From: an uncultured Bacteroidia bacterium
Lineage (GTDB): Bacteria; Bacteroidota; Bacteroidia; Bacteroidales; UBA932
Assembly: GCA_902794005.1 (NCBI GenBank)
Contig: CADBFO010000021.1
Span: 1 to 57,861, forward strand
DNA length: 57,861 bases
Direction: 5' to 3'
Each line of letters opens with the position of its first letter. Within the stretch, counting starts at the first letter, position 1. The position numbers and the translations under genes are program-made. Of the stretch, positions 30,892 to 57,461 are shown piece by piece. The notes beneath the pieces are model-generated. The model did not search any database, was not told where the DNA came from, and saw only the letters and a program-made list of their open reading frames with translations.

Positions 30892-31353
<462 letters not shown>

Positions 31354-31372
31354 CAGACGGCAAAACGTCCTC

Positions 31373-31409
31373 AAAAAAACCTGGCTCCCTTTTTCGGAGT
31401 CAGGTTTTT
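31373..31409. terminator. Bidirectional terminator between ntpK and yggS
   Basis: Stem CCTGGCTCC (31380-31388) with GGAGTCAGG (31396-31404), one wobble pair and a 7-nt loop, flanked by a run of seven A and by TTTTT. It serves the ATPase operon on the plus strand and yggS on the minus strand, whose stop codon overlaps its end. Confidence 0.85.
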
Positions 31410-32086
31410 CAGTACTCGCGCGGACCGAAGATATCGGTTCCGATGCGCACCATCGTCGCTCCATGCCTCACGGCGACAGGCCAGTCTCCCGACATGCCGA
31501 TAGACAAGTGGTCAAAGCCGGGAAGCCCCATTCCATGAATCCGCCTGAACAGCGATTCAATGCGAGCAAACTCCCTTTCCACCTGCTCCCTGTCTTCCGT
31601 ATGGGAGGCCATTCCCATCAAACCCCTTATTCTGACGGGGGAAGCAGCTCCCTTTTCGCCTTTTCCGCCGGGGAATACCCGTGACGCCGCAATCTCCAGA
31701 ATTTCCTCCTCTGAGAAGCCTTGTTTGGATTCTTCGACTCCCAGATGAAGCTCCAGAAGCACGTCCACCCCCCTGTCGTTTGCGGCCGCCCATTTCTCTA
31801 TAGCTTCCAGGAGATGGAAGGAATCCACCGACTGGACCAGCGAGACATAGGGCAGTACCAATTTGAGTTTATTGGTCTGCAAGTGGCCGATAAAATGCCA
31901 CTGCACATCGGCAGGCATCTGCGGAACCTTGGCCGCCAGCTCCTGCGGACGGCTTTCAGCGAAAATACGCTGTCCGGCTTCATAGGCCTCCATAAGCCTT
32001 TCCACCGGATGGAATTTGGAAACGGCCACCAGAGAAACATCCGGGGGCAGTTCCTTCCTGATCAGCTGCAAATTCTTTTCTATCAT
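31409..32086 (-). CDS. yggS: YggS/PROSC family PLP homeostasis protein
   Basis: Cytosolic pyridoxal-phosphate-binding protein of 225 residues with a single TIM-barrel domain. Lys24 in VAVSKFHP is the cofactor lysine. WHFIGHLQTNKLKLVLP, SVDS, LLELHLGVEESKQGF, GLMGMASH and LSIGMSGDWPVAV follow the family order. The usual GENRVQE is FAESRPQEL here, a mild variation. I used ATG 32086 because the frame upstream of it runs through a palindromic repeat and into the yidC coding region. It follows yidC, separated by a terminator-like hairpin. Confidence 0.9.
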   Translation of the reverse strand: MIEKNLQLIRKELPPDVSLVAVSKFHPVERLMEAYEAGQRIFAESRPQELAAKVPQMPADVQWHFIGHLQTNKLKLVLPYVSLVQSVDSFHLLEAIEKWAAANDRGVDVLLELHLGVEESKQGFSEEEILEIAASRVFPGGKGEKGAASPVRIRGLMGMASHTEDREQVEREFARIESLFRRIHGMGLPGFDHLSIGMSGDWPVAVRHGATMVRIGTDIFGPREY

Positions 32087-32116
32087 AAAAAGAGATGCCC
32101 GGACAAAGCCGGGCAT
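32087..32116 (-). terminator. Terminator-like palindromic repeat between yidC and yggS
   Basis: Perfect 8-bp stem ATGCCCGG (32095-32102) with CCGGGCAT (32109-32116) and a 6-nt loop. On the minus strand it is followed by CTCTTTTT, giving an intrinsic terminator just after yidC and immediately before yggS. The sequence ATGCCCGG-loop-CCGGGCATGACA also looks like a dispersed repeat type known from many bacterial genomes. Confidence 0.6.
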
Positions 32117-32121
32117 GACAA

Positions 32122-33950
32122 TTAGCGTTTCTTTCCTCTCTGCTTTTCCATCTCCCGCTGCATCTTCTGGGCTTCTTCCAGACGCTGCTGCCACTTGCTC
32201 TTGGGAGCGGCCTTGCCGCTGGCTTCGGCCGCCTTCACTTTGTCCAGAATCTCCTGGGGCTTCACAATCCACTTGCGGATTACAAAGGTTTCTACCATGG
32301 TGATGAGGTTGCTCAGCAGATAGTAGTAACTGAGACCGCTGGAGAGGTTGTTACAGATGAAGAACATCATGACGGGCATCATGTACAGGCTCATCACCTG
32401 CATCATCTTGGCATTGGGGTCGTTTCCGGCCGTCTGGTTCTGCATGGTGATCTTCGAGTAGAAGAACATGGACAGAGCCATCAGAAGGGCAAAGAGGGAA
32501 ATGTGGTCCATGCCCAGGATACTGGTTCCCCAATGGATGACATCATCATAGGCGCTCAGGTCCTCGGCCCACAGGAACGGCTGCTGGCGCAGCTGGATGG
32601 AGGCCGGGAAGAAGCGGAACATGGCCCAGAGAATAGGCATCTGGAGCAGCATGGGCAGGCAGCCGCCCATGGGCGAAACACCGGCCTTGCGGTACAGGTC
32701 CATGGTTTCCTGCTGCTTCTTCATGGCGTCCTCCTGCTTGGGATACTTGGCGTTGATTAGGCGAAGGGCAATACCACAATCTTGATGAAGATGGTCATCA
32801 GGAGGATGATGATACCGTAGCTGGATATGAACTTGGACAACCAGTCGAACAGCGGGATAATCACGTATTTGGTGAACACGCCGATGATCCGGCCTCCAAG
32901 CGGAATCACTTTCTCATAGGAATGGTTGTAAGCCTTGAGGCCTTTATAGTCATTGGGGCCGAAGTAAAACTCGAAGGGAACCTGGATGTTGTCAGACCCC
33001 GGAACGATATCGGCCTGCATGAGGGCCTTGCAGTGCATGAGATCTTCCCCGCCCTTGGGCATGAACTCGATCTTGAACTCTCCGTAGGTGAAATTATTCG
33101 GAGAACGCATGATGGCGCTGAAGAACTGCTGCTGGAAGGCAAACCACTCGATGTTGTTGTTGAAACGCTTCTCTCCCGCACGGCCGTTGCCGATATTGGC
33201 CGGCTTGTTGTCGTCCGGGAAATAATAATTGAGGCGGGAATACTGGGTTTCGTTCTTGTAACCTTTCTCCATGCGCGGAATGACGGCATCGAAATCGATG
33301 TCGATACTTCCCACGTTGCGGGGAATGAGGTTGCCCATCCCGACAAAGGAAAGCGTCTCGTTCAGCGAATAGGAATCCTTCACCAGCGTGTACTTCTGCT
33401 CGATGTATCCGCCGTTCCCCATCGGGAGACGCATCACCACCGTACTGTCCGAAGAGGCTTCCGGGACATACTGGAAGGTAAATTTGCGCGTGTCGATGGC
33501 GGTAGGGGCATACACCACATAACCCAGCTGGCTCTTTTCTCCCTGCAGGAGATACAGCGGTTCCTTGCTATAGGTAAGGTAATCTTTCACCTTCACCGAA
33601 TACGGCTGGGCGCCTCGGGTGGTGAAGACGATTTCCAGTTTCTCGTTTTCGAGCGTCAGGAGCTGCCCCTCGGCCCGGGCGGCCGAATTGAGCAGGGAAT
33701 CCGAATAGACGGGAGCCTGGACGGGAGCCTGGACGGCCGTGGCAGCCGAATCGACAGCGGCGGCAGCCTCGGGATGCTCTGCGCGCCAGATGCTGTCCTG
33801 CTGCCATTGGGCATAAGCCTCGGCGGCAGCAATGGAATCCAGTTGGGCTTGATAGGCCTGTTGCTTGGCTACTTGCCGGCTCTGATATCCGAAGTACCCC
33901 ATCATGATGAGGAACATCAGGACAAAGCCGATGATTGATTTTTTATCCAT
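32122..33950 (-). pseudogene. yidC: Membrane protein insertase YidC, frame broken by an internal deletion
   Basis: Insertase for inner-membrane proteins. The first frame (33950-32757, 397 residues) has the first membrane helix (MDKKSIIGFVLMFLIMMGYF), the periplasmic domain and the start of the core (IIILLMTIFIKIVVLPFA) and then stops. The second frame resumes at once with a different phase, LINAKYPKQEDAMKKQQETM, and contains the remaining core helices (GVSPMGGCLPMLLQMPILWAMF) to 32122. Compared with the family about 16-20 residues of the cytosolic loop after LPF are missing, and the phase shift means the lost piece was 3n+1 nt. Everything else looks intact. YidC is normally essential, so an assembly error or a mixed population is as likely as a true lesion. 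Confidence 0.85.
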
Positions 33951-33953
33951 AGG

Positions 33954-35738
33954 CTACTCCTTCACCTCCTCGGCTTCCTTGGCGCGAATCCGGGCCTTCA
34001 AGTCCTCGAGTTTGGCCTTGGCAGCATTGATTCGCTCCTGCATCTGGGCCTTCAGTTTCTCGGCACCCTTGGAAAGGCCGAAGAAACCGATGTTGTTCTC
34101 GTAGGTCTGAATCTCCTGCTGGAGCTGGTTGAACTGCTCTTTGAGACGGTCTGTCTCCGTGAGCGGACGGCGCTCTGCGCGACCACCTTCACGACGGCCG
34201 TTCTCCCTGCGGCCACGGGTGCCGAAGCCGGGGAATTTCTCCTCCATCGCATCACGGTAAGCAGCCTGGACGGCATCTTTCTCCTTGAAGGGGACAAAGC
34301 CGATGGCATTCCACTTCTCTGCAAACTCCTTGCGGGCCGCCTCGTCTTTCTCCGCATCCGGAACATAGGCTTTGATTTCCTCGATAAGGGCCTTCTTGGC
34401 GGCCAGATTGCCGGCCAGGTTGCCGGGACCGGCGGGACGGTTGTCACGGGCCGTAAAGAAGGCATCGCAGGCGGCGCGGAAACGCTTCCAGATCTGCTCG
34501 CTCTTCTTGCGAGGGACGGCCCCGATTTCCTTCCACTGCTTCTGCAGTTCGATGAGACGATCTGCGGTGGCCTTCCAGTCGGTGCTGTCCTTGAGGGACT
34601 CGGCTTCCTCGATGATGGCCATCTTCTTCTCCAAATTGGCGTTCATGCTGTCCTTGAACTCCGTAAAGGAGGCGCGCTTGCGCTCGAAGAACTTGTCGCA
34701 GGCGGCGCGGAAGCGCTCATATATCTTCTGGTTTTCCTTGCGGGTGGCAAAGCCGATGCCGCGCCACTTGGCCTGAATGTCCTCGATTTCCTTGCTCAGG
34801 GCATTCCACTCGGTGGAGGAGCTGATCTCCTTCTCTGCAATAGCCTCCACCTGCTCGCAGAGGGCGCTCTTGGCGGCAAGGTTCTCTACCTGCTGGGCTT
34901 TGAGCCCTTCAAAATGGGCCTGATAGCGCTTATTGACAATGCTGGTCGCGGCACGGAAGCGCTCCCAGATGCTTTCGCGGAATTCCTTGGCCACGGGGCC
35001 CAGGTCCTTCCACAGTTCGTGCAGCTTCTGGAGTTCCTTGAAGGCTTCCACCACATCCTCTTCCCCGGCAAGGGCCTCCGCCTGTTCGCAGTAGGCGGTC
35101 TTCGCTTCCAGATTCTTCTTGAAATCCAGGTCCCGGAGTTCGCGGTTGATATCCACCAGGTCATAGAACTTGGTGACATAGAGCTGATAAGTGTCATTGA
35201 TGTCCCGGAAATTCTGCTGGGGAACCGGGCCGATTTCCCGCCAACGGTTCTGGATGTCACGAAACTTGGGGAAGGCATCCTTCATATCGCCGGGCTGCTC
35301 CACGAGGACCTTGAGTTCCTCGATGACGGCCTGCTTTTTGGCGAAATTCTCTTCCCGCTGGGCATCCAGCTCCCTGTTGTATTCTGCGCGCTCTTTCTTA
35401 TATTTCACATAGAGTGCCTTGAAACCGGCCTCGATGGCGGCAAAGGGGCTGATGGGACCGCTCTGCAGGGGAACGGTAGCCTCTTCGGAAGAGGTGTTCT
35501 CATCGGGCTCCTCCACGACCTCGTCCTCGCCGGCTTCGGCCTTCTCCTTGGAGAGGCGCTTATAGAAGGCGGACTTGATGGCTTCCGCCTCCTTGGACCG
35601 AGTCATACGGTCTTCGCTTTCAATCAACGTCTGGAACAGTTCCGAAAGTTCCGCGAGGGTTTTCTCGCCATAGTTCTGTTCCTCTTTTGCTACATCTGCG
35701 GGCTCCTCGGCTACCACAGGCTTAATTTCTTCACTCAT
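33954..35738 (-). CDS. DUF349 repeat protein
   Basis: Cytosolic, highly charged protein of 594 residues. After an acidic N-terminus (residues 1 to about 110) come at least five helical DUF349-type repeats, each with a W-(K/R)-x-(I/L)-G-x-(V/A) core followed by a basic FRAA element: RWREIGPVPQ, LWKDLGPVAK, KWRGIGFATR, QWKEIGAVPR and KWNAIGFVPF. The C-terminus is a coiled coil. Function is not established. It lies 3 nt upstream of yidC on the same strand, an arrangement that suggests a link with membrane protein biogenesis or simply a shared promoter. A -7 element (TATATTTG, 35776-35769) lies upstream. Confidence 0.85.
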   Translation of the reverse strand: MSEEIKPVVAEEPADVAKEEQNYGEKTLAELSELFQTLIESEDRMTRSKEAEAIKSAFYKRLSKEKAEAGEDEVVEEPDENTSSEEATVPLQSGPISPFAAIEAGFKALYVKYKKERAEYNRELDAQREENFAKKQAVIEELKVLVEQPGDMKDAFPKFRDIQNRWREIGPVPQQNFRDINDTYQLYVTKFYDLVDINRELRDLDFKKNLEAKTAYCEQAEALAGEEDVVEAFKELQKLHELWKDLGPVAKEFRESIWERFRAATSIVNKRYQAHFEGLKAQQVENLAAKSALCEQVEAIAEKEISSSTEWNALSKEIEDIQAKWRGIGFATRKENQKIYERFRAACDKFFERKRASFTEFKDSMNANLEKKMAIIEEAESLKDSTDWKATADRLIELQKQWKEIGAVPRKKSEQIWKRFRAACDAFFTARDNRPAGPGNLAGNLAAKKALIEEIKAYVPDAEKDEAARKEFAEKWNAIGFVPFKEKDAVQAAYRDAMEEKFPGFGTRGRRENGRREGGRAERRPLTETDRLKEQFNQLQQEIQTYENNIGFFGLSKGAEKLKAQMQERINAAKAKLEDLKARIRAKEAEEVKE

Positions 35739-40179: not shown

Positions 40180-40929
40180 TTATTTTTCAATCAGTTCTAT
40201 CTGATATAAACGAGGCCAGTTCTTTCCGGTCAGGTAAATGCGCCCCGCAGCGTCACGGGCAATTCCGTTGAGCACATCCGTGTCAGGGGCCCGCAGTTTA
40301 GCGGGAAGCAGACCGGCGCAGTCCACCAGCCCTTCCACCTTGCCGGAGGAAGGATTGATGATGACAATGGATTCCGTGGTGTACACGTTGGCCCAGATTT
40401 TTCCGTCAATCCACTCCAACTCGTTCAGGTAGCGGACCGGACGTCCGTTCAAGGTGACCGGCAGTTTCCGGAGCACTTTCAGGTTCCTGTCCATAAAATA
40501 CAGCGCCGAGCCGCCATCGCTGGCAATGAGCTGTTTCCCGTCCGTAGTGAGTCCCCAGCCCTCACGGGGGTAACTCACCGTGGCTTTGTACGCCAGTGTG
40601 GCGGCATCGTAACGGAAAGCCACCTTATTGGTCCATGTCAGGACATAAAGCTCTCCGTCAAGGACAGCCGAGCCTTCACCGAAGTACTTGCGGCTCAATT
40701 TTTTAAGGGCGATCGGCTCCCCGGTGGCCAGGTCCACGGTCCGGATGGTGCTCTCCCCGTACTGACCGGTCGTTTCATACAGGATCCCGTCCTGGAAGAA
40801 GATCCCCTGGGTATAGGCATCCGTGCGGTGAGGGTATTCCTTCACCACCTTCAGCCGATACTCCTTCACCTGCGCCTCGGAACAGGCGCAGAGGGTAAGT
40901 CCCAGAACCAGAATCCAAAATTTCTTCAT
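40180..40929 (-). CDS. Glutaminyl-peptide cyclotransferase (plant-type QC), lipoprotein
   Basis: Converts N-terminal glutamine of peptides to pyroglutamate. The 249-residue protein starts with a lipoprotein signal ending in the lipobox LCAC (Cys16), so it acts in the envelope. It has the five-bladed propeller repeats of this family, with HRTDAYTQGIFFQDGILYETTGQYGES in the first blade and LNELEWIDGKIWANVYTTE and LNGIARDAAGRIYLTGKNWPRLYQI in the last blades. It overlaps the upstream DUF1846 gene by 4 nt and ends where the riboswitch begins. Bacteroidetes protein exports often expose N-terminal Gln after signal cleavage, a plausible substrate. Confidence 0.9.
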   Translation of the reverse strand: MKKFWILVLGLTLCACSEAQVKEYRLKVVKEYPHRTDAYTQGIFFQDGILYETTGQYGESTIRTVDLATGEPIALKKLSRKYFGEGSAVLDGELYVLTWTNKVAFRYDAATLAYKATVSYPREGWGLTTDGKQLIASDGGSALYFMDRNLKVLRKLPVTLNGRPVRYLNELEWIDGKIWANVYTTESIVIINPSSGKVEGLVDCAGLLPAKLRAPDTDVLNGIARDAAGRIYLTGKNWPRLYQIELIEK

Positions 40930-46703: not shown

Positions 46704-47366
46704 TTATTTCCGGAACCAGGCCAGAGACTTGGCGCAGAGGTCAGAGATGGATTTCCAGTCTCCGGCGGCCACGACGTCCTTGGGGAAAAGCTTGGAACCC
46801 ATGCCCACGGCGGTGACGCCGCTCTTTCCCCAGGCCGTCAGATTCTCTTCCGTAGGCTCTACGGCACCGGTACACATCACCATGGCCCAGGGAAGCGGGC
46901 CCAGGATGTTCTTCACGAAAGACGGGCCGCCCACGTTGCCGGCCGGGAAAACCTTCACCAGGTCGCAGCCCAGTTCCTGGGCCTTGACAATCTCGGTCAC
47001 GGTGCCGCAGCCGGGGCTGTACGGGATGCCGCGGCGGTTGGCCACCTTCACCACGTCCTCCACCATGCAGGGCGATACCAGGAAATCGGCCCCCATTTGC
47101 AGATAGAGGACGGCGGTAGGCGCATCCAGGATGGTACCGGCGCCCAGGGCCATCCCGGGGCATTCCTTCCGGACGAAAGCGATGACCTCCTCGAACACCT
47201 TGTTGGCGCCGTCGCCGCGATTGGTGAATTCGAAGGCGCGGATGCCGCCGTCATAGCAGGCCTTCACCACCTTCTTGGTGAGTTCCACATCCTTGTTGTA
47301 GAACACCGGGACGATTCCGGTGCTGCGGATGATGTTGATTGTGTCGATTTTATTGAATTTTGCCAT
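46704..47366 (-). CDS. eda: KDPG / KHG aldolase
   Basis: Splits 2-keto-3-deoxy-6-phosphogluconate into pyruvate and glyceraldehyde 3-phosphate. The 220-residue class I aldolase has GIRAFEFTNRG with the catalytic Glu region, GAGTILDAPTA, FLVSPCMVEDVV, and the Schiff-base lysine in VKVFPAGNVGGPSFVK. The usual start is ATG 47366 (MAKFNKIDTI); the frame extends to 47396 through a repeat piece. It is the last gene of the uronate operon and closes both branches at the KDPG level. Confidence 0.93.
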   Translation of the reverse strand: MAKFNKIDTINIIRSTGIVPVFYNKDVELTKKVVKACYDGGIRAFEFTNRGDGANKVFEEVIAFVRKECPGMALGAGTILDAPTAVLYLQMGADFLVSPCMVEDVVKVANRRGIPYSPGCGTVTEIVKAQELGCDLVKVFPAGNVGGPSFVKNILGPLPWAMVMCTGAVEPTEENLTAWGKSGVTAVGMGSKLFPKDVVAAGDWKSISDLCAKSLAWFRK

Positions 47367-47368
47367 AT

Positions 47369-47396
47369 GGATTCTTCTCTTCGTTCTGATTGACAC
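47369..47396. repeat. Single arm of the dispersed repeat between kdgK and eda
   Basis: GGATTCTTCTCTTCGTTCTGATTGACAC-type sequence filling the 30-nt gap between kdgK and eda. It resembles one arm of the palindrome at 28435-28486. Confidence 0.5.
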
Positions 47397-48434
47397 TTAG
47401 CGGCTTACGCGACCGGAACCGCCGCCTTTGATTAAACCTTCCACTTCAGAGACCGTAACACGGTTGTAGTCGCCCAGGATGGTGTGCTTGAGGCAGGAGG
47501 CTGCCGCAGCGAACTCGATGGCTTCCTGGTCGGTATCGTAGGCGATGAGGCCGTACAGGAGACCGCCCATGAAGGAATCGCCGCCGCCCACACGGTCCAC
47601 GATGTGGGTGATGTCGTACCGACGGCTCTGCCAAAGGGTCTTGCCATCGTACAGAACGCCGCCCCAGGTGTTGTGGTTGGCGTTGATGGAGCCGCGCAGG
47701 GTGATGGCCACTTTCTTGCACTTCGGGAACTTTTTCATCAGCTGCTCTGCTACGCTCACAAAGATGCTCTGGTCAATCTCACCGCCGGTTTTCTCGGCGT
47801 CGAAGCCTTCGGGCTTGATGCCGAACTCCTTCTCGGCATCTTCCTCGTTGCCAAGAATAAGGTCGCAGCCTTCCACCAGGGCGGGCATCACCTCGGCGGC
47901 CGTCTTGCCGTATTTCCAGAGTTTCTTGCGGTAGTTGAGGTCGCAGGACACCTTCACGCCCAGTTCATTGGCCACCTTGATGGCTTCCAGACAGGCATCG
48001 GCCGCCCCCTGGCTCAGGGCAGGGGTAATGCCGGTCCAGTGGAACCAGTCGGCCCCTTCCAGCACCTTGTGCCAGTCCACCATGCCGGGCTGGATTTCGG
48101 AGATGGCGGAGTGGGCGCGGTCATAGACCACTTTGGAACCACGGGCCACCGCTCCGGTTTCCAGATAATAGATCCCCACACGGTCTCCGCCGTACACCAC
48201 GCCGTCCAGATTCACGCCCAGCCCCTTGAGTTCGGCCGTACACATGTCGGCGATGTCGTTTTTGGGAAGGCGCGTCACAAAATGGGCGTCCACGCCGTAG
48301 TTGGCCAGCGACACGGCCACATTGGCCTCACCGCCGCCGAAGGTTGCGTCAAATTGGCGAGCCTGGGAAAAACGCTGGTATCCCGGGGTCGAGAGGCGAA
48401 GCATCACTTCGCCGAAACTTACTACTTTTGCCAT
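47397..48434 (-). CDS. kdgK: 2-keto-3-deoxygluconate kinase (PfkB family)
   Basis: Phosphorylates KDG to KDPG with ATP. The ribokinase-type fold is visible from VVSFGEVMLRLSTPGYQRF and the substrate lid FGGGEANVAVSLANYG to the catalytic block DRVGGGDSFMGGLLYG near the C-terminus, whose Asp is the base. Length 345 residues. The kinase sits between kduI and eda in the operon, where KDG from both uronate branches arrives. A fructokinase function is possible for the family in general but not likely here. Confidence 0.9.
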   Translation of the reverse strand: MAKVVSFGEVMLRLSTPGYQRFSQARQFDATFGGGEANVAVSLANYGVDAHFVTRLPKNDIADMCTAELKGLGVNLDGVVYGGDRVGIYYLETGAVARGSKVVYDRAHSAISEIQPGMVDWHKVLEGADWFHWTGITPALSQGAADACLEAIKVANELGVKVSCDLNYRKKLWKYGKTAAEVMPALVEGCDLILGNEEDAEKEFGIKPEGFDAEKTGGEIDQSIFVSVAEQLMKKFPKCKKVAITLRGSINANHNTWGGVLYDGKTLWQSRRYDITHIVDRVGGGDSFMGGLLYGLIAYDTDQEAIEFAAAASCLKHTILGDYNRVTVSEVEGLIKGGGSGRVSR

Positions 48435-48479: not shown

Positions 48480-49400
48480 CTAACGCATTTCCGTATAAGG
48501 GATCTTGTCCATGTCGCCATAGTCCAGGTTCTCACCGGCCATGCCCCAGATAAACATGTAGTTGGAGGTGCCGGCCGCGGCGTGGATGCTCCATTCGGGA
48601 CTCATCACGGCCTGCTCGTTGGCCAGCCAGAGGAGGCGCTCCTGCCGGGGCTCTCCCATCAGGTGGCAAATCATGTTTCCCGGTTTCACATTGAAGTAGA
48701 AATAAGCTTCAATGCGGCGGGCGTGGGTGTGAGCCGGCATGGTATTCCAGACAGAACCGGGCTTGAGCTCGGTAAGCCCCATCTGCAGCTGGCAGGGCCC
48801 TTCCTCCAGCACGTTGTTCACGATCAGCTGGTTGATGACACGGTCGTTGCTGTCCTCCATCTTGCCGGCGGCAAAGGAATTGGCCTTGAGCGAGCCTTTG
48901 CGGCCGTCGATGGTGATCAGCTGGGTCTTGTAGGCCTTGTGTGCCGTGGCGGAATTGAGATAGAACTTGGCCGGATGCGCCGCATCTTTGCTTTTGAAGA
49001 TGACCTCTTCATTCCCCCGTCCCACATACAGGGCTTCCTTGAACTTCAGGACATAATCCTTTCCGCTTACCGTCACGATGCCTTCCCCGCCGATATTGAT
49101 GATGCCCAGTTCACGGGCAAAAAGGAAATAAGGGGCCTTCAGGGGGTCGATCGTCTCCAGCTTCAAGGGTTTGGTGGCAGGCACCGCTCCGCCGAAGATG
49201 AAACGGTCGTAGAGGGAATAAGTGAGACGGATTTCGTCGGAGACCATCACCTCCGGCATCATAAAACGGGAACGGAGGGTTTCGGTGTCGTACGTCTTTA
49301 CATCGGCCGGATGACAGGCCGTCTGGATGGTATATTGGGTTTGTGCGCTCATGATGAGAGTTGTCAGCAACAGGGCCGACAGGCTAATTAACTTTTTCAT
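48480..49400 (-). CDS. kduI: 5-keto-4-deoxyuronate isomerase KduI with an N-terminal signal peptide
   Basis: Cupin isomerase that converts 5-keto-4-deoxyuronate (DKI) to 2,5-diketo-3-deoxygluconate (DKII). The zinc site is intact: HTHARRIE gives His224, His226 and Glu231, and His273 lies in WSIHAAAG. Residues 1-20 ([20 protein letters not shown]) form a clean signal peptide with two lysines, a hydrophobic core and an Ala/Gln cleavage site. Directly after it the family N-terminus ([20 protein letters not shown]) starts, so the signal is added to a complete enzyme, 306 residues against about 280 in E. coli. The gene start overlaps the end of the EIIC gene by 17 nt. KduI is usually cytosolic, so export is the odd feature. 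An internal ATG at residue 17 could give a cytosolic form. Confidence 0.9.
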
Positions 49401-50775
49401 AGGAAGCTTTGATAATTCTTCTGCGGTTGAAGACGGCCATCACGGTAGTTCCCACAACGAGAATACCGCTGCCGATGAGTTTGAAGTCGTGTACCAGATG
49501 GAAGATGACCCAGGAGAAGAGGCTGGAAGCAAAGTCCAGGCTGCCGCCCAGGAAGCCTTCCGGGATGGCCACGGCCGTGTCGCCGGTGCGGGCATAGACA
49601 TCCTGCGCCGCCTGCGTGAAGTACGGAGCCAGGTCGGTCACGAAATACAGGCCCACCGTCAGGGACACCAGGCCGATAAGGAATGTCTTTACCACATTGC
49701 CCCTGGTAACGGGCAGTACCGCCGGGAACACATAGAACATTCCGGCCAGCGAAGCCAAGGGCAGGAACTCGTTTCCGGGCAGGGCCACGGCCAGCAGCAG
49801 CGTGCAGGGAATCAGCAGCAGCGACACCACCAGGGTGGTGGGATGGCCGATTACCAAGGCCGGGCTCATGCCGATATTGATGCCGGCCGAGTTCTTGAAC
49901 TTTCTGGAAACCAGGTCTTTGGTGGCTTCGGCAATGGGCTTTAGGCCTTCGATGAACAGCGAGGTGATTCGCGGAATCAGTTCCATCACGGCCCCCATCT
50001 TGATGCCCAGCCCCAGGATGGCGGGGATATGATCCACCACCTCCGTCCAGCTGCGATAACTGAGGCAGCCGATGAGGATGCCCACCAGCACGCCCAGCAG
50101 CAGCGGTTCTCCCAGCACGCCGAACTTCTTCTTGAGGCCTTCGGCATCGATGTCCAGCCTGTCGAAGCCGGGAATCTTGTCAAAGCACCAGTTGAGTCCT
50201 TCGGCGAAGGGGACGAAACCCTGGACGAAAGGCTGCGGAATGGAAATCCCGTCCATGTCCTTGTAGTAGCCCTGGAATTTTTTGGTGGTAAGGTCGGCCA
50301 TCACGAGCGTAATGACGAAGCAGATGATGGCGGCGAAGAAGCCATACCAGATACTGTCCGTGGCAAAATACACAACGGCGCCGATAAAGGCGTAGTGCCA
50401 GTAGTTCCACAAGTCGATGTTGATGGTATTGGTGGCCTTCACCAGCAGCAGGACAATGTTGACCGCCAGGCAAACCGGGATGATGAATGCCCCCACGGTG
50501 GTATTGTAGGCCACCGATGCGGCGGCCGGCCATCCCATGTCGAAGATGCCCAGCTGCAGGCCGTAAATCTCGGTCATCTCCTTCAACGGAGTGCCCAGGG
50601 AGGAGGTCAGGAGGGCCGTCACCACGCTCAGGCCCACGAAACCCACGCCCACCAGCAGGCCGCTCTTGAGCGCCTTGCCGGGCTTGATGCCGATGCAAAC
50701 GCCCAGGATGAAGAACAGGATGGGCATCATCACCGCGGCACCCAGGCCGATGATATAACTGAATACTTGTTCCAT
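49384..50775 (-). CDS. Orphan PTS EIIC permease, galactitol (GatC) family
   Basis: Integral membrane protein of 463 residues with about 11-12 hydrophobic segments, of the EIIC-GAT type (GatC/SgaT superfamily); note [20 protein letters not shown] and [17 protein letters not shown]. No EIIA or EIIB gene is in the window. The first helix begins [19 protein letters not shown]. Bacteroidetes generally lack PTS sugar uptake, so this protein probably acts as a facilitator or secondary transporter, not as a PTS component. Position between kduD and kduI suggests unsaturated-uronate derivatives as substrate. Its end overlaps kduI by 17 nt. Confidence 0.83.
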
Positions 50776-50823
50776 ACGTTGATTCGAAGGACTCCGGAGC
50801 GAAACGTGCGCCCCGCAGGAGTG

Positions 50824-51624
50824 CTATTTGGGCTGTTTTCCGATATACGCCAGGATACCGCCGTCCACATAGAGGATGTGGCCGTTGACGGCATCCGAAG
50901 CCTTGGAGGCCAGGAAAACGGCAGGACCGGCGAGTTCATCAGGGTCCAGCCAGCGGCCGGCAGGGGTCTTGGCGCAGATGAAGGAGTCGAAGGGATGGCG
51001 GGAACCATCGGCCTGCCTTTCGCGCAGCGGAGCGGTCTGGGGCGTGGCGATATATCCGGGGCCGATGGCATTGCACTGGATGTTGTACTCGCCGTATTCC
51101 GAACAGATGTTGCGCGTGAGCATTTTGAGGCCACCCTTGGCGGCGGCATAGGCGCTCACCGTCTCGCGGCCCAGTTCGCTCATCATGGAGCAGATGTTGA
51201 TAATCTTTCCCTCCCGGCGCTCCATCATCTCGGGAACGACGGCGGCGGCGCAGATGTACGGCCCCACGAGGTCCACATCGATCACCCGCTGGAACTCGGC
51301 CCGGGACATCTCGTGCATGGGAATGCGCTTGATGATGCCGGCGTTGTTCACCAGGATGTCAATCCGGCCCACCTCCCGATGGATTCTGTCCACAAGGGCT
51401 TTCACGGCCACCTCGTCGGTGACATCACACACATAGCCGTGCACGTTGGTGATACCGGCCTCCCTGTAGGCTTCCAGGCCCTTTCGCATGGAAGCCTCGT
51501 TGGAGGTGTTGAAAATGATATGCTCGACGCCCGCCTCCACGAAGGCCTTGGCGATGGCGAAGCCAATCCCATAAGCAGCCCCGGTGACCCAGGCGTTCTT
51601 TCCTTTCAGTGAAAAGATATCCAT
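50824..51624 (-). CDS. kduD: 2-keto-3-deoxygluconate 5-dehydrogenase (KduD-like SDR)
   Basis: NAD(P)H-dependent short-chain dehydrogenase of 266 residues that reduces DKII to KDG. SDR motifs are visible: TGAAYGIGFAIA (TGxxxGIG cofactor loop), NNAG, the catalytic Ser in INICSMMSELG and the YxxxK motif YAAAK. Relatives are often named gluconate 5-dehydrogenase. The adjacent kduI and KDG kinase make KduD activity the better guess. It lacks a signal peptide, so it is cytosolic. It lies 48 nt before the EIIC gene and 3 nt after the MFS transporter gene. Confidence 0.85.
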   Translation of the reverse strand: MDIFSLKGKNAWVTGAAYGIGFAIAKAFVEAGVEHIIFNTSNEASMRKGLEAYREAGITNVHGYVCDVTDEVAVKALVDRIHREVGRIDILVNNAGIIKRIPMHEMSRAEFQRVIDVDLVGPYICAAAVVPEMMERREGKIINICSMMSELGRETVSAYAAAKGGLKMLTRNICSEYGEYNIQCNAIGPGYIATPQTAPLRERQADGSRHPFDSFICAKTPAGRWLDPDELAGPAVFLASKASDAVNGHILYVDGGILAYIGKQPK

Positions 51625-51627
51625 AGA

Positions 51628-53076
51628 TTAAATCTCGACAGGTTTGTACTTGGGAACCAGCGACTTCATGATGATCCAGCCCAGCAGATAGGCCAGACCG
51701 CAGAAGCAGAACATGATGAAGTAACCGGCCGGCTTTCCTTCGAAGCCCATGAAATGGAAGGCGGCACCCTGCCCCTCAGCATAAGTGAACAGGTTACCGG
51801 CCACCTTCTGGATAATCATGGAGCCCAGACCGCCCGCCATGGCGCCGATTCCGGTAACGGAAGCGATGGTGCTCTTGGGAAACATGTCACCCACGGTAGA
51901 GAAGATGTTGGCGCTCCAGGCCTGGTGTCCCGCACCGGCGATACCGATGAGGACGGCCGGCCACCAGGGGCTGTAGGCGCCCAGCGGCTGGGCGGCAAGG
52001 GCCACCAGCGGGAAGAAGGCAAAGATGAGCATGGAAAGCATTCGGCCCGCATACGGATCCATCCCCTTCTTCTCCACGAAGAGCTTGGGCAGATAGCCGC
52101 CGAACAGGGAAACCACCGTCACGATGGCGTAGAGGGTGAAAATAAGGCCCTGGCCCAGCGGAGAACTGGCCGGTGCATTGAACTGGTCCTGAAAATAAGC
52201 GGGAGCCCAGAAAAGGAAGAACCACCACACGCCATCGGTGAGGAACTTGCCCACGATGAAACTCCACGTCTGCCTGTAGCGGAAGCACTGCATGAAGGGG
52301 ATGGACTTCTCGTCGGCCGAGGAAGCCTTGACGGCCGCATCCTCGGCATCGTCCTGGTGAATATACTCCAGTTCCGCCGTATTGACGTGCCTGCTCTTTT
52401 CAGGCTTGTCATACATGAACTGCCAGAAGAACATCCAGAGGAAGCCCAGTGCGCCGATGATGATGAAAGCCATTTCCCAGCCCAGGTGCTTGGCAAGCGG
52501 CGGAATCAGGAGCGGAGCGGCCAGCGCACCGACGGAAGCGCCTGCATTGAAGATGGAAGTCGCGAAAGCACGGTCCTTCTTGGGGAAAAACTCGGCCGTG
52601 GCCTTGATGGCCGCCGGGAAGTTTCCGGATTCACCGAGCGCCAGGATGCCACGGCAAAGGAGGAACAGGTACACGGATACGGTAGAAATGGCCAGGGCTA
52701 CGTTGGAACCGGCCTCGACAGCCCTCAGGGCCGCCACGGAATCCACTTCGGGAACAAACCAGGTGGTGGCGATGCCGCAGGCGGCATGCATCACGGCACC
52801 CACGGACCATACGCAGATGGCGATGAGATAGCCCTTCTTGGTGCCCATCCAGTCCACGAATTTGCCGGCGAAGAGGCAGGCGATGGCGTAGAAGATGGAG
52901 AACAGAGAGGTGATGGTACCGTAGTCGGCATCCGTCCAGTGGAACTCCGGTGCAATGAATTCCTTGTAAGTAAGGGAGAGCACCTGGCGGTCCAGGTAGT
53001 TCACGGTAGTGGCCACAAACAGCAGGCTGCAGATCCACCACCGCCAGTTGGTCATCAATTTTTTCTGTGTGGACAT
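51628..53076 (-). CDS. exuT: MFS hexuronate transporter (ExuT-like)
   Basis: Inner-membrane transporter of 482 residues with 12 predicted helices, of the anion:cation symporter family that contains ExuT. The start WWICSLLFVATTVNYLDRQVLSLTYKEF is typical of these hexuronate carriers, as is DWMGTKKGYLIAICVWSVGAVMHA in the loop 2-3 region. It likely imports galacturonate and glucuronate. It stands between uxaB and kduD, 3 nt from each. The operon thus contains two different permeases, this MFS one for saturated uronates and the EIIC-type one. Confidence 0.87.
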   Translation of the reverse strand: MSTQKKLMTNWRWWICSLLFVATTVNYLDRQVLSLTYKEFIAPEFHWTDADYGTITSLFSIFYAIACLFAGKFVDWMGTKKGYLIAICVWSVGAVMHAACGIATTWFVPEVDSVAALRAVEAGSNVALAISTVSVYLFLLCRGILALGESGNFPAAIKATAEFFPKKDRAFATSIFNAGASVGALAAPLLIPPLAKHLGWEMAFIIIGALGFLWMFFWQFMYDKPEKSRHVNTAELEYIHQDDAEDAAVKASSADEKSIPFMQCFRYRQTWSFIVGKFLTDGVWWFFLFWAPAYFQDQFNAPASSPLGQGLIFTLYAIVTVVSLFGGYLPKLFVEKKGMDPYAGRMLSMLIFAFFPLVALAAQPLGAYSPWWPAVLIGIAGAGHQAWSANIFSTVGDMFPKSTIASVTGIGAMAGGLGSMIIQKVAGNLFTYAEGQGAAFHFMGFEGKPAGYFIMFCFCGLAYLLGWIIMKSLVPKYKPVEI

Positions 53077-53079
53077 AAG

Positions 53080-54519
53080 CTATAGGATGGATTTAACGGC
53101 TTCACGCATGCCCTTCTCTTGAATCAGGGACAGGTCTTTGGTGAGAAGGTCGGTCAGGCCCGGAACGGCATTGAGGTCTTCGCCCCAGATGAATGCTTCG
53201 GCCAGGACGCCCCTGGCCACCTTGGCCACGTCGCCGGTGGCCCAGAGGTCCTTCAGGAGATCCATGATCTTGGGGTCGTCGTTGGGAACGATCTCGTCCT
53301 CTCCTCTTTTGCCGCCCTTGTAATAGGTGCAGATACCGGCGAGGCCCAGGACGATGCCCTGAGGCAGTTCACCCTTGCGCTCCAGATAGGTCTTGAGACC
53401 GGGCAGGTCGCGGGTCTTGAACTTGGGGAAGGAGTTGAGCATGATGGAGGTGACAAAATGCTTCACGAAGGGATTGCGGAAGCGTTCCATCACATCGCCG
53501 GCGAATATCTCCAGCTCGTCCTTGGGCAGGTTGCAGGTGGGAAGAAGTTCCTCGAACATCACCTTGTGCACGAACTTGCCCACCTCGGGATCCTCGCAGC
53601 ATTCCTTGACGGTATTGAGACCGCTCAGATAGCCCACGGGACTCAGTACGGTATGGGGGCCGTTGAGGAGGGTTACCTTACGCTCGTGGTAAGGAGCCTC
53701 GGAAGGCACGAAGAGCACGTTGAGGCCCGCTTTGTCGGCCGGGAATTCGGCGGCGACTTCCTTGGGAGCCTCGATGACCCAGAGATGGAAAATCTCGGCC
53801 TTGTCCAGGAGACGGTCGTCGTAACCGATACGCTCGCAGAGCTGGGCGGCGGTGTCACGCGGATAACCGGGAACGATGCGGTCCACGAGGGTGCTGTACA
53901 CGCCGCAGCACTCCTCAAACCAGGCGCTGAAGTCCGGACCCAGGTTCCACAGGTCGATATACTGACGGATGCATTCCTTGAGGTGCCTGCCGTTTTCGAA
54001 GATAAGCTCGCAAGGGAAAAGGATGAGGCCCTTGTCCCTGGCGCCTTTGAAATACTCGAAACGGTGATACAACAGCTGCGTGAGCTTGCCGGGATAGGAG
54101 CCGGCGGGCTTGTCGGTAAATTTGCAGGCAGGGTCGAAGGCGATGCCTGCCTCGGTGGTATTGGAAATTACAAAGCGGATTTCAGGCTGTTCGGCCAGCT
54201 TGAGGTACTCCTCAAACTGAGTATAGGGGTTCAGTCCGCGGGAAATCACGTCAATCAGGTCCACGCTGTCCACCGGCTCTCCGTTCTGGAGCCCCTGAAG
54301 ATTCAGGTGATAGAGGCCGTCCTGTTCGTTGAGCCATTCCACCATGCCTTTCTCGATGGGCTGAACCACCACCACGGAGCCGTTGAAGTCCGTCTTCTGG
54401 TTGGTTTTCCAGATAATCCACTCGATGAATGCGCGAAGGAAGTTGCCCTCGCCAAACTGAATCACCTTTTCGGTGTACTGCTTTGCCTGCGGTGCAGACG
54501 TTCGATTAAGTCTTTCCAT
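53080..54519 (-). CDS. uxaB: Tagaturonate reductase (altronate oxidoreductase)
   Basis: NADH-dependent reductase of 479 residues that converts tagaturonate to altronate. The mannitol-dehydrogenase-type fold begins with VIQFGEGNFLRAF, the cofactor loop, and continues with VVVVQPIEKGM, FVISNTTEAGIAF and the catalytic block LLNGPHTVLSPVGYLSG, typical of UxaB. It lies 9 nt after uxaA. UxuB (fructuronate reductase) is related, but the neighbour uxaA supports the galacturonate branch. Confidence 0.92.
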   Translation of the reverse strand: MERLNRTSAPQAKQYTEKVIQFGEGNFLRAFIEWIIWKTNQKTDFNGSVVVVQPIEKGMVEWLNEQDGLYHLNLQGLQNGEPVDSVDLIDVISRGLNPYTQFEEYLKLAEQPEIRFVISNTTEAGIAFDPACKFTDKPAGSYPGKLTQLLYHRFEYFKGARDKGLILFPCELIFENGRHLKECIRQYIDLWNLGPDFSAWFEECCGVYSTLVDRIVPGYPRDTAAQLCERIGYDDRLLDKAEIFHLWVIEAPKEVAAEFPADKAGLNVLFVPSEAPYHERKVTLLNGPHTVLSPVGYLSGLNTVKECCEDPEVGKFVHKVMFEELLPTCNLPKDELEIFAGDVMERFRNPFVKHFVTSIMLNSFPKFKTRDLPGLKTYLERKGELPQGIVLGLAGICTYYKGGKRGEDEIVPNDDPKIMDLLKDLWATGDVAKVARGVLAEAFIWGEDLNAVPGLTDLLTKDLSLIQEKGMREAVKSIL

Positions 54520-54528
54520 ATCTGTGTT

Positions 54529-56046
54529 TTATAAAGTTACTCCTTGTTTAAAAATAGCGATCTCGCGGATGCCGTATTTTTCGTTGTTCACCGCTTCGCC
54601 CGATGCGGCGGCCAGCACGAATTCGATGAAACGGGCCGATACCTCTTCCATCGGCTCCCCTTGCGCCAGAACGCCGGCGTTGAAGTCAATCCAGGAAGGC
54701 TTGGCTTCGGAAAGCGGGGTGTTGGTGGAAATCTTCATGGTGGGAACGAAACTGCCGAAGGGTGTTCCGCGGCCGGTGGTAAACAGGACGATCTGGCAGC
54801 CGGAGGCCGCAAGAGCCGTGGAGGCCACGAGGTCGTTTCCGGGGGCCGACAGCAGATTCAAACCCTTGACGCTGAGGCGCTCGGCATACCTCAGTACGCC
54901 GCGGACGATGCTCTTCCCGCATTTCTGCGTGCAGCCCAGGGATTTCTCTTCCAGGGTAGAGATGCCGCCGGCCTTGTTGCCCGGCGAAGGGTTCTCGTAC
55001 ACGGGCATCCCCTGCTTGATGAAGTATTCCTTGAAGTCATTGATCAGATGCACCGTCTTGTCAAAGGTGGCGCGGTCCTGGCAACGGTTCATCAGGATGG
55101 TCTCGGCACCGAACATCTCGGGGACTTCCGTGAGCACGGTGGTGCCGCCCTGGGCCACAATCCAGTCGGAGAATACGCCCAGCAGAGGGTTGGCCGTGAT
55201 GCCGGAAAGGCCGTCGGAGCCTCCGCATTTGAGTCCCACGCGGAGTTCGCTCACAGGAACGTCCGTCCGTTCATCCTTCGAGCAGACGGCGTAGATTTCC
55301 CGCAGGCGCTCCACGCCGTACTGAATTTCGTCGTCCACTTTCTGGCACGCGAACATTTTCACGCGGGATGCATCCACAGGGCCCACCAGTTCACGGAAAG
55401 CATCCAGCTGGTTGTTTTCGCAACCGAGGCTCACCACCAGTACGCCGCCGGCATTGGGATGATGCACCATGTCGGCAAGGATCTGGCGGGTATTCTCATG
55501 GTCTTCGCCCAGCTGGGAGCAGCCATAATTGTGCGGGAAATGGACCACCGCGTCCACGGAAGATGTCTCTCCGGCAATCTCTGCCTTGAAGCGGTTCACA
55601 ATCTGTTCGCAGATGCCGTTCACGCAGCCCACGGTGGGAATCACCCAGATCTGGTTGCGGATGCCAACTTGTCCGTCGGCCCTTCTGAAACCCTTGAAGC
55701 TTGCAGCGGATTCTTCGCCGCGCTCAGAATGACACGCATCATCCCCAGGCTTGCCGGAGGATCTTACAGAATCCAGGGGTTCATACTGATAGTCCAACAG
55801 CCCTTCCAGGTTGGTCTTGATGCAGGAATGATCCACCAGGGTACCGGCTTCGGCATCCCGGGTCACATGGCCGATGGGGAAACCATACTTGACCACGTCC
55901 TCCCCCGCCCTGAGGCTGCGGAGGACGATTTTGTGGCCGCGGGGAATGTCCATCGCCAGGGTCACGCCTTCCACCACCTCTCCCTTGGAGAGATCCTGGA
56001 GGGCCACCGCCACATTGTCGGCCGGATTGATTTTGATGTATTTCAT
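54529..56046 (-). CDS. uxaA: Altronate dehydratase, with a repeat-derived insertion in the linker
   Basis: Dehydrates altronate to KDG. The N-terminal SAF domain (residues 1 to about 85) has PRGHKIVLRSL and DHSCIKTNLEGLL with iron-binding residues. The C-terminal domain begins KGFRRADGQVGIRNQIWVIPTVGCVNGICEQIV and includes NYGCSQLGEDHENT and VGLKCGGSDGLSGITANPLLG. The linker between the domains, normally about a dozen residues, is enlarged by residues 91-113, encoded by the dispersed repeat at 55708-55774 and reading in frame through a CHSERGEES element. I used ATG 56046, which shares one base with the uxaC stop (TGATG). Total length 505 residues. Confidence 0.93.
   Translation of the reverse strand: MKYIKINPADNVAVALQDLSKGEVVEGVTLAMDIPRGHKIVLRSLRAGEDVVKYGFPIGHVTRDAEAGTLVDHSCIKTNLEGLLDYQYEPLDSVRSSGKPGDDACHSERGEESAASFKGFRRADGQVGIRNQIWVIPTVGCVNGICEQIVNRFKAEIAGETSSVDAVVHFPHNYGCSQLGEDHENTRQILADMVHHPNAGGVLVVSLGCENNQLDAFRELVGPVDASRVKMFACQKVDDEIQYGVERLREIYAVCSKDERTDVPVSELRVGLKCGGSDGLSGITANPLLGVFSDWIVAQGGTTVLTEVPEMFGAETILMNRCQDRATFDKTVHLINDFKEYFIKQGMPVYENPSPGNKAGGISTLEEKSLGCTQKCGKSIVRGVLRYAERLSVKGLNLLSAPGNDLVASTALAASGCQIVLFTTGRGTPFGSFVPTMKISTNTPLSEAKPSWIDFNAGVLAQGEPMEEVSARFIEFVLAAASGEAVNNEKYGIREIAIFKQGVTL
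55708..55774. repeat. Palindromic dispersed repeat inside the uxaA coding sequence
   Basis: The 67-nt element is bounded by GGATTC (55708-55713) and GAATCC (55769-55774) and includes the typical repeat core GGATTCTTCGCCGCGCTCAG followed by AATGACA. It is fully open in the uxaA frame and sits exactly at the domain linker. Confidence 0.7.
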
Positions 56047-57461
56047 CAGAACTGGAAATAATTCTTGGCGTTGTTGTAGCAAATGTCCTCAATCATCCGG
56101 CCGATGAAGTCCATCTCGGAGGCCGGCAGTTTTCCCTGCTCCACATCCTTTCCGAAGACGTCGCACAGGATGCGGCGGAAGTACTCGTGACGGGGATAGG
56201 AGATGAAACTGCGGCTGTCTGTGAGCATGCCCACGAAACGGCTGATGAGGCCCAGGTTGCTCAGGGAATCCATCTGGCGGCGCATGCCCACTTCCTGATC
56301 CAGGAACCACCAGCCGGAGCCGAACTGCATTTTTCCGGGCACGGTGCCGTCATTGAAGGTATAGGCCATGGTCATCATCACAGCATTGTCCTTGGGATTG
56401 AGGCAGTAGAGGATGGTCTTGGCCAGTTTATCCTCACGGGTAAGGCGGTCGAAGAAACGGTGGCCGGCCGTGGCGATATCCAGATCGTGGATGGCGTCGT
56501 AACCGGTGTCGGCCCCCACCTCGGCGAACATCTTGGTGTTGTTGTTGCGGATGGCGCCGATGTGGAACTGCTGGGCCCAGCCGGCCTCGGCGTCCATGAC
56601 GGCCTGGTCGTGCAGGAAGGCGCTGCGGAATTTCTCCAGTTCCTTGGGATTGGGGGCAATGCCCAGGAGCACTTTCTTGAAGATGAGCTCAATCTCGATT
56701 TCCTTGTAATCGGCGCTGTAAAAGTTCTCCAGGCCGTGATCGGAGAGTTTGCACCCGTTCTCGGCGAAATAGTCGTGACGCTTCTTGAGGGCTTCCTGGA
56801 GGTCGGCAAAGGAGTTGATCTCCATGTCGGCGGCTTCGCCCAGGCGCTTCAGGTAGGCCTTGTAAAATTCGGGACGCTCGATGGCCATGGCGCAGTCCGG
56901 GCGCCAGGCGGGAATCACCTTCACGCCGAAGGGATGCTGGGCGATCATCTTGTGCCAGCGAAGGTCGTCAGCCGGATCGTCGGTGGTGCAAACCACCTGT
57001 ACGTCGAATTTCTTGATGAGGGCCTGGCCGCGGAACTCCGGCGTAGCCAGCTTGGCGTTGCACTCCTCGAAAATTTCACGGGCCGTAGCCGGGCACAGGA
57101 GTTTTTCGATTCCGAAAACGCGGCTCAGTTCCAGATGGGTCCAGTGATAGAGGGGGTTTCGCATGGTGTAAGGAACCGTCTCGGCCCATTTCTGGAAAGT
57201 CTCCCAGGCGCTGTGCTTGCCGCCGGTGAGATAATCCTCGGACACGCCGTTGGCGCGCATGGCACGCCATTTATAATGGTCGCCATAGTGGCCGTCCACC
57301 AGCCAGAGCTGGGTGATGTCGCGGAACTGGATGTTCTCGGCAATCTGCTGCGGAACCAGGTGGCAGTGATAGTCGATAATGGGCATCTTCTCCGCGTGCT
57401 CGTGGTAAAGTTTCTTAGCGGTCTCCGTCTGGAGCATGAAATCGGGATTGATAAAGGTCAT
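56046..57461 (-). CDS. uxaC: Glucuronate / galacturonate isomerase
   Basis: Isomerises galacturonate to tagaturonate and glucuronate to fructuronate. The 471-residue amidohydrolase-type barrel has PIIDYHCHLVPQQIAEN with the metal-binding HxH, VVCTTDDPADDLRWHK, QFHIGAIRNNNTKMF with the late histidine, and DSRSFISYPRHEYFRRILCD near the C-terminus. It is the first gene of the uronate operon in the window. The stop overlaps the uxaA start. Confidence 0.95.
   Translation of the reverse strand: MTFINPDFMLQTETAKKLYHEHAEKMPIIDYHCHLVPQQIAENIQFRDITQLWLVDGHYGDHYKWRAMRANGVSEDYLTGGKHSAWETFQKWAETVPYTMRNPLYHWTHLELSRVFGIEKLLCPATAREIFEECNAKLATPEFRGQALIKKFDVQVVCTTDDPADDLRWHKMIAQHPFGVKVIPAWRPDCAMAIERPEFYKAYLKRLGEAADMEINSFADLQEALKKRHDYFAENGCKLSDHGLENFYSADYKEIEIELIFKKVLLGIAPNPKELEKFRSAFLHDQAVMDAEAGWAQQFHIGAIRNNNTKMFAEVGADTGYDAIHDLDIATAGHRFFDRLTREDKLAKTILYCLNPKDNAVMMTMAYTFNDGTVPGKMQFGSGWWFLDQEVGMRRQMDSLSNLGLISRFVGMLTDSRSFISYPRHEYFRRILCDVFGKDVEQGKLPASEMDFIGRMIEDICYNNAKNYFQF

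Follow-up and report, generated by a model that had tools for sequence, protein, structure and literature searches.

Gene organisation of the uronate locus

The stretch of DNA analysed here, referred to as the window, comprises positions 1 to 57,861 (57,861 nt) of contig CADBFO010000021.1 (assembly GCA_902794005.1) from an uncultured Bacteroidia bacterium of the Bacteroidales lineage UBA932, whose genome (G000) is 89% complete. Its uronate genes form one minus-strand run consisting of uxaC, uxaA, uxaB, an ExuT-like major facilitator superfamily (MFS) gene, a DhuD-type reductase gene, an EIIC-GAT gene, kduI, a KdgK-type kinase gene and kdgA. The pair formed by kduI, whose product bears a predicted export leader, and the EIIC gene, which encodes a permease of phosphotransferase system (PTS) type, is the subject of this study, together with the reductase gene upstream of them.

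48480..49400, minus strand: kduI, 306 aa with a Sec/SPI-type leader, predicted periplasmic isomerase of 4-deoxy-L-threo-5-hexosulose uronate (DHU, or DKI) to 3-deoxy-D-glycero-2,5-hexodiulosonate (DKII); NF002091 match, 9kd0_A aligned from residue 20, leader and zinc ligands kept in relatives
49344..49400, minus strand: kduI leader peptide, codons 1–19, predicted cleavage A/Q at 19/20; supported by its layout, Q at +1 and a pooled dN/dS of 0.27
49384..50775, minus strand: orphan permease of the EIIC-GAT family (463 aa), putative PTS-independent carrier for DKII import; PF03611 match, genome without an HPr or EIIB match or an over-cut-off EI, S304 and S342
49384..49400, minus strand: 17-nt overlap of the EIIC 3′ end with the kduI start, from the coordinates; not conserved as an overlap
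50824..51624, minus strand: dhuD-type reductase, 266 aa, leaderless, proposed cytosolic step from DKII to 2-keto-3-deoxygluconate (KDG); NF005488 over cut-off, TIGR01832 below

The 17-nt overlap of the two genes that was described in the original prediction was confirmed at 49384–49400. The possibility that this overlap is a conserved device was considered and rejected, as the distances between the match ends range from an overlap to ~250 nt in most loci.

The reductase gene had been described as a leaderless kduD directly upstream. Its position and the lack of a leader (N-terminus MDIFSLKGKN) hold, but by family models the protein is read as putatively of the DhuD rather than the KduD type: it scores 456.6 bits on NF005488/PRK07097 (cut-off 369; model named gluconate 5-dehydrogenase) and 208.2 bits on the KduD model TIGR01832, under the cut-off of 338.85. 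Reading it as DhuD-type presumes that NF005488 covers DhuD, and was adopted because the Bacteroidota gene pair is termed kduI-dhuD in the sections of PMC12838403 covered here.

A predicted export leader in front of a complete KduI

KduI of the window scores 377 bits on NF002091 (cut-off 250). Residues H224, H226, E231 and H273, the zinc ligands by correspondence with E. coli KduI, are all present, and the ligands are retained in 129–130 of 130 distinct leader-bearing sequences. The family model and the zinc site predict the conversion of DHU to DKII for this protein. PDB chain 9kd0_A aligns with residues 20–306 and thus leaves a complete enzyme behind a leader of 19 residues, in agreement with the earlier description of a full-length, four-ligand KduI behind a complete signal peptide.

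The leader of the window protein (MKKL...MSA/Q, with the slash marking the predicted cleavage) has a basic start, a hydrophobic core, a small residue at −1, Q at +1 and no lipobox Cys. Read by eye, the leader-bearing sequences open with an ATG, after which come a stretch rich in K/R and a hydrophobic core, the latter being part of the leader definition used for sorting the loci; the leader closes with a small residue, and the next residue is Q. This junction sits just ahead of the point where leaderless KduI proteins begin, and cleavage at the predicted site would restore approximately the leaderless N-terminus. The +1 residue is Q in 91 of the 92 distinct leader proteins of a first set (90 A/Q, 1 S/Q) and in 35 of the 39 leader loci of a second, further set; Q at +1 is the Q-rule of Bacteroidetes as given in the part of PMC5837995 considered here. 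PDB entry 9kd0, known here by its sequence and molecule name, is a leader-clade KduI solved without the leader; it is identical over 287/287 residues to the mature protein of B. xylanisolvens XB1A (L072), with the predicted +1 Q as residue 2 of the 9kd0 chain. A search of the open literature found no paper on this entry.

Pooled dN/dS was 0.27 for the leader and 0.066 for the enzyme core (118 overlapping pairs from 30 close loci), indicating that the leader is under coding constraint. Leaders in this set were parsed from an ATG followed by K/R/N/Q to an A-Q, so that a basic start and A at −1, each counted in 91/91, follow by construction and were not used; parsing failed for L083 and settled on the wrong A-Q in L114.

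These features bear on whether the leader could instead be a mis-called start, or be left unprocessed, with a cytosolic KduI and an EIIC that is only an operon passenger. The textbook KduI is indeed cytosolic and the window protein has an internal Met17 at which translation might begin. However, Met at the corresponding position (−3) occurs in only 28 of the 91 parsed leaders, leader-bearing sequences have an upstream ATG and a basic start, and the coding constraint, the Q at the junction and the pairing with EIIC described below also speak against it. We give this explanation little credence, and a start at the internal ATG of residue 17 is not indicated. Export of KduI is strongly supported at the sequence level, with a periplasmic location as the expected outcome, and the leader-bearing form is carried by many gut Bacteroidales rather than being a local oddity.

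The window also encodes a glutamine cyclotransferase (40180–40929, minus strand; PF05096, 290 bits), an enzyme of the type expected to cap N-termini that follow the Q-rule, among them that of the predicted mature KduI.

Leader-bearing KduI is paired with an orphan EIIC

To describe the distribution of the two genes, matches were counted in an order-wide draw of 393 genomes and in a draw of 161 Bacteroidaceae genomes, with the KduI and EIIC counts taken as coming from the same draws. In the order-wide draw, KduI was present in 103 genomes and an EIIC of the window type in 10, namely the window and nine genomes in which the fetched KduI bears a leader and EIIC lies directly upstream. KduI loci were fetched for 108 of the 111 order-wide matches, leaving out the window itself and two short fragments. 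Close relatives contributed another 19 loci, and the resulting set of 127 comprises 18 leader, 105 leaderless and 4 incomplete loci (L199, L209, L211 and L215, excluded from the counts). EIIC adjoins KduI in 18/18 leader loci and in 0/105 leaderless loci, its absence being judged at the locus only, not genome-wide, for ten leaderless loci from close relatives.

The 80 closest named loci all bear leaders and have EIIC within 400 nt in 77 cases; having been taken as the top 80 among 560 matches to a query that itself bears a leader, they owe their uniform leaders partly to selection, and they overlap with the genomes of the region set. Taken together, 98 leader loci (92 distinct proteins) were collected, 95 of which have EIIC within 400 nt. 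In the other three it lies 3.1 kb (L085) or 1.8 kb (L088) from KduI or elsewhere in the genome (L050).

Among the 161 Bacteroidaceae genomes, KduI was found in 94 and EIIC in 56. The leader-bearing KduI and EIIC occur in the identical 56 genomes, and the other 105 are without EIIC, 38 of them having a leaderless KduI; the expected association of signal-bearing KduI with EIIC across genomes was therefore found in full (56/56 versus 0/105). The leader state was taken from fetched sequence in 40 of the 56 leader and 18 of the 38 leaderless genomes, and from the alignment start (residues 1–9 versus 9–19) in the other 16 and 20. Four loci (L301, L304, L305 and L309) that a relaxed 60-residue window had flagged as leader-bearing were reassigned by hand as leaderless because of a conserved MKTNYE start. 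Both leader states are present within three genera, and nine leader genomes carry a leaderless second KduI copy (six from fetched sequence, three by alignment). In genome G826 the leader KduI and EIIC genes are on different contigs.

A chance association of the two genes was rejected by these pairing counts. A search of 395 genomes across the phylum for window-type EIIC outside Bacteroidales returned three members of the order and one 31% fragment. KduI and EIIC identities were moderately correlated (r 0.56; 276 pairs from 24 loci), which was not used as evidence. Both the export of KduI and its association with an EIIC free of PTS partners are strongly supported at the sequence level by these comparisons.

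The gene pair is carried by familiar gut species, namely B. xylanisolvens, B. finegoldii, B. faecis and P. plebeius. Two records labelled as plasmids, L259 (NZ_OY725925.1, B. finegoldii) and L262 (OY725991.1, P. massiliensis), hold window-type EIIC genes; in L259 an EIIC-kduI-MFS series lies beside pectinesterases, but the record also contains dxs and tatC and may be a chromosome. The KduI-EIIC locus L080 is from a metagenome-assembled genome with a Paenibacillus title, which is probably mislabelled or mis-binned, as its KduI groups with Bacteroidales sequences. In genome G859 (contig C381, 29539–30911) the EIIC match is split over two frames, either because the gene is disrupted or because of a misassembly.

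Origin of the leader clade

In the densest rooted tree, which includes two outgroup sequences, the leader-bearing KduI proteins form one clade (support 100/96) nested among leaderless lineages, with an exact position among these that is weakly supported. Smaller samplings required one change of leader state (one sampling) or two (two samplings). A single leader clade was not rejected by the approximately unbiased (AU) test (p 0.41). Several independent gains were considered, since L115 and L118 sat near leaderless sequences and a second change was required in two of the trees, but are not claimed in view of the AU test and the densest tree. The clade thus probably arose once, and a single leader clade would make the KduI-EIIC pairing one innovation that was spread and long kept, patchily within genera, rather than a repeated gain.

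The EIIC belongs to a PTS family but has no PTS partners

The EIIC of the window scores 264.5 bits on PF03611 (EIIC-GAT; cut-off 24.2) and 368.6 bits on the galactitol-specific model TIGR00827, below the cut-off of 542.2. It belongs by sequence to the same family as the galactitol PTS permease EIIC-GAT/GatC (PDB 9u82), which it matches over residues 3–405. In agreement with the earlier description of an EIIC without PTS partners, neither HPr nor EIIB was found in the window genome, and no EI match exceeded the cut-off (EIIA was not searched for). Across 19 leader genomes searched for the same three components, HPr and EIIB were each found in one, G027 in both cases, and EI over cut-off in none; these genomes are 72–100% complete, so that single absences mean little. 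Sub-cut-off matches to the EI model occurred in 17/19, most of them within open reading frames (ORFs) of ~900–1030 aa, which from their length we take to be pyruvate phosphate dikinase. On contig C13 of G027, a congener, HPr is encoded close to an EI-like ORF (561 aa) and an ORF of 621 aa with an EIIB domain (~29105–35673; L216, L217 and L268), either as a PTS island or as contamination.

The orphan EIICs also differ from PTS EIICs in sequence. Position 304 is Ser/Thr in 120/120 orphan EIIC rows, some of them near-identical, and Asp in 7/7 PTS EIICs, and position 342 is Ser in the orphan rows and Asp in 6/7 PTS EIICs; the window protein has S304 and S342. The seven comparison proteins are six EIICs with adjacent annotated IIA and IIB genes and the GatC chain, in which the Asp replaced by Ser/Thr is residue 296 of the 9u82 chain. 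The Asp at 304 is within a G-x-D-x-A motif before GH, a feature defined in the present comparison and not known to be a published criterion. The loss of acidic residues at 304 and 342 may suit an acidic cargo.

Family membership leaves room for an EIIC that is still a PTS permease and draws EIIA, EIIB and HPr from elsewhere in the genome, as the components on one contig of G027 might allow. This is hardly credible for the group, as 18/19 leader genomes are without HPr and EIIB matches, none has EI over cut-off and the window operon has a separate KDG-type kinase. Compared with GatC, the window EIIC lacks the Asp and scores under the TIGR00827 cut-off, and most genomes that carry its type are without EIIB, HPr or an over-cut-off EI; it is a candidate EIIC that may work without phosphate-transfer partners. 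The window EIIC (49384–50775) also matches a phage family of unknown function, phrog_31009 (2.5e-72).

The putative cargo of the EIIC

A plasmid of Lactobacillus intestinalis carries kduD, EIIC, a sugar kinase gene and a gene for an aldolase of the 2-keto-3-deoxy-6-phosphogluconate (KDPG) type in series, with an EIIC 53% identical to that of the window. No IIA or IIB is annotated in the 15 kb read around this EIIC, and no KduI match was found on the whole 319-kb plasmid (the chromosome was outside the search). The plasmid kduD product is 52% identical to E. coli KduD versus 41% to the window reductase. In the plasmid EIIC, positions 304 and 342 are Thr and Ser, as in the orphans, and a tree split with support 100/99 unites it with these and separates it from the C. 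difficile and L. salivarius EIICs of PTS type.

Because a DKII reductase is the common partner of EIIC in both settings, DKII would be the most economical cargo. This assignment is strengthened by the kduD-EIIC-kinase-aldolase plasmid operon without kduI and by the loss of the conserved acidic residues.

A proposed route of periplasmic isomerisation and import

Building on the leader, the catalytic site, the operon, the EIIC pairing and the missing PTS partners, all evident in the sequences, we infer the location of KduI and the cargo, direction and energy of transport as follows. Exported hydrolases of glycoside hydrolase families 88 and 105 (GH88/GH105) would free an unsaturated uronate in the periplasm, which opens to DHU. 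The exported zinc isomerase KduI would convert DHU to DKII there, and the orphan EIIC would move DKII over the inner membrane without phosphorylation. Uptake would be pulled by cytosolic DhuD, which would reduce DKII to KDG with a nicotinamide cofactor, followed by KdgK and KdgA. The only step relocated outside would be the one that is free of nucleotide cofactors. We regard it as probable that the exported KduI branch works with a PTS-free EIIC carrier in this way. The division of labour in the original prediction, that is, periplasmic isomerisation, import by EIIC and cytosolic reduction, is supported by the comparisons, with DKII as the putative cargo.

GH88/GH105 proteins were found in 23 of the 24 genomes examined, and inspection of 30 GH88/GH105 loci by eye revealed export or lipoprotein leaders in 29, with L227 unclear; the GH88 of the window genome has a lipoprotein-type leader. 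With GH88/GH105 exported in both KduI classes, DHU is expected to form in the periplasm of either, and leaderless genomes would need another DHU carrier.

Several observations weigh against the proposed route. Genomes with a leaderless KduI also have leader-bearing GH88/GH105 proteins, so that such sugars can be handled without an isomerase in the periplasm. DHU has no evident source in the leader genome G060 (99% complete), which is the exception without a GH88 match, or in G095, which has weak matches only. At the leader itself, the junction of L114 (genome G187) is ANA/T and thus without Q at +1, as are those of L272, L275, L276 and L277 (4/39 further leader loci), and in G829 the additional KduI copy L281 lacks an adjacent EIIC and has lost or altered its usual start. 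The pairing is probably one long-kept event and not many independent gains. The cargo argument hangs on one Gram-positive plasmid, with its chromosome outside the search, and long branches, with a warning to that effect, affect the EIIC tree in which the L. intestinalis protein groups with the orphans. Finally, another importer could be present, as an MFS gene lies near at least 34 of the 98 leader loci; neighbour clustering undercounts such genes (EIIC was clustered in 83/98 leader loci versus 97 by tblastn, with flanks ≤8 kb).

The remaining genes of the run are as follows.

46704..47396, minus strand: kdgA, aldolase for KDPG and 2-keto-4-hydroxyglutarate (KHG); PF01081, NF005499 over cut-off; the listed start is GTG, and an alternative ATG at codon 11 is possible
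47397..48434, minus strand: kdgK-type PfkB kinase (KDG to KDPG); PF00294, NF041633 and NF041332 matches both below cut-off
51628..53076, minus strand: MFS transporter, ExuT-like (hexuronate/galactonate kind); PF07690, TIGR00893 best, below cut-off
53080..54519, minus strand: uxaB, tagaturonate reductase; NF002969 over cut-off
54529..56082, minus strand: uxaA, altronate/galactarate dehydratase family; PF04295, PF20629 and PF08666
56046..57461, minus strand: uxaC, hexuronate isomerase; NF002794 over cut-off

The MFS gene of the window operon leaves room for a different assignment of the transporters, in which KduI is periplasmic but EIIC carries DHU, KDG or a hexuronate and DKII enters via the adjacent ExuT-like protein. 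Uptake of hexuronates by E. coli ExuT (PMC3578941, as far as that source was covered) is in line with this, as is the frequency of MFS genes at leader loci. MFS does not track the leader, since it is also near at least 26 of the 105 leaderless loci, whereas EIIC does, being at none of these. The L. intestinalis plasmid, with EIIC beside kduD and no kduI match, also fits DKII better than DHU, and KDG as a cargo would need no KduD. We consider this assignment unlikely.

A further alternative is that exported KduI isomerises galacturonate or glucuronate to tagaturonate or fructuronate and that EIIC imports these keto-uronates. E. coli KduI has been hypothesised to act on hexuronates (PMC3578941, in the part considered), and uxaB and uxaA share the window cluster. 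However, the window already has uxaC for hexuronate isomerisation, the operon with kduD in L. intestinalis favours DKII, and a UxaB-family gene is clustered in only 7 of the 98 leader loci (flanks ≤8 kb, with the undercounting mentioned above), which makes this alternative quite improbable.

Returning to periplasmic isomerisation followed by DKII import, a broader proposition is that a PTS permease lineage turned into a stand-alone carrier of unphosphorylated DKII, the exported isomerase replacing phosphorylation in a scheme of isomerising and then importing. As the Gram-positive plasmid holds the carrier-reductase unit without the isomerase, DKII from Bacteroidales could also be a nutrient shared with neighbours. 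For this proposition as a whole we see arguments about evenly balanced.

Relation to known systems

In Dickeya dadantii and E. coli, the isomerase and the reductase of the KduI-KduD pathway are both cytosolic. The window shares with this pathway the isomerase family, the zinc site and the order DHU, DKII, KDG, KDPG, and differs from it in that its isomerase bears an export leader. In the sections of PMC12838403 covered, DHU formation from pectin is placed in the cytoplasm. The kduI-dhuD 'type E' hybrid clusters described there, whose strains are 63% Bacteroidota, match the gene pair and reductase type as read here, and the two KduI classes of Bacteroidota are not distinguished in those sections. 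The words 'signal' and 'PTS' do not occur in the main text as covered, where the phosphotransferase system is named for streptococci.

The periplasmic GH88 route of B. thetaiotaomicron likewise yields DHU in the periplasm (PMC6994673); in the part of that source considered, DHU passes straight into cytoplasmic metabolism, with no mention of a carrier in the inner membrane or of an isomerase in the periplasm. The consulted part of a review (PMC9067506) has monomers imported over the inner membrane by an unnamed carrier. In the sections of PMC3878776 covered, 5-dehydro-4-deoxyglucuronate is inferred as an end product, and the enzymes of monosaccharide pathways are described as cytoplasmic; a small number of periplasmic or extracellular proteins belong to regulons including that of KdgR, where an earlier hint could lie. 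In PMC4769552, isomerase, permease and PTS do not occur, and a search of the open-access literature found no description of a periplasmic KduI or of an EIIC beside KduI. The inner-membrane carrier for unsaturated uronate released in the periplasm of Bacteroidales is thus unnamed in the literature covered, and kduI-EIIC is a candidate gene pair for this function. Annotation lumps what are two clean classes of KduI.

A DUF4861 (PF16153) protein is encoded near kduI, mostly on the same strand, in 14 of the 98 leader and 40 of the 105 leaderless loci, and a second cluster of this kind occurs in 14 of the 105 leaderless loci. Examples are L164:7750-8991 and L117:7790-9085, with one in L164 being lipoprotein-like, and the protein is a possible partner in unsaturated uronate use.

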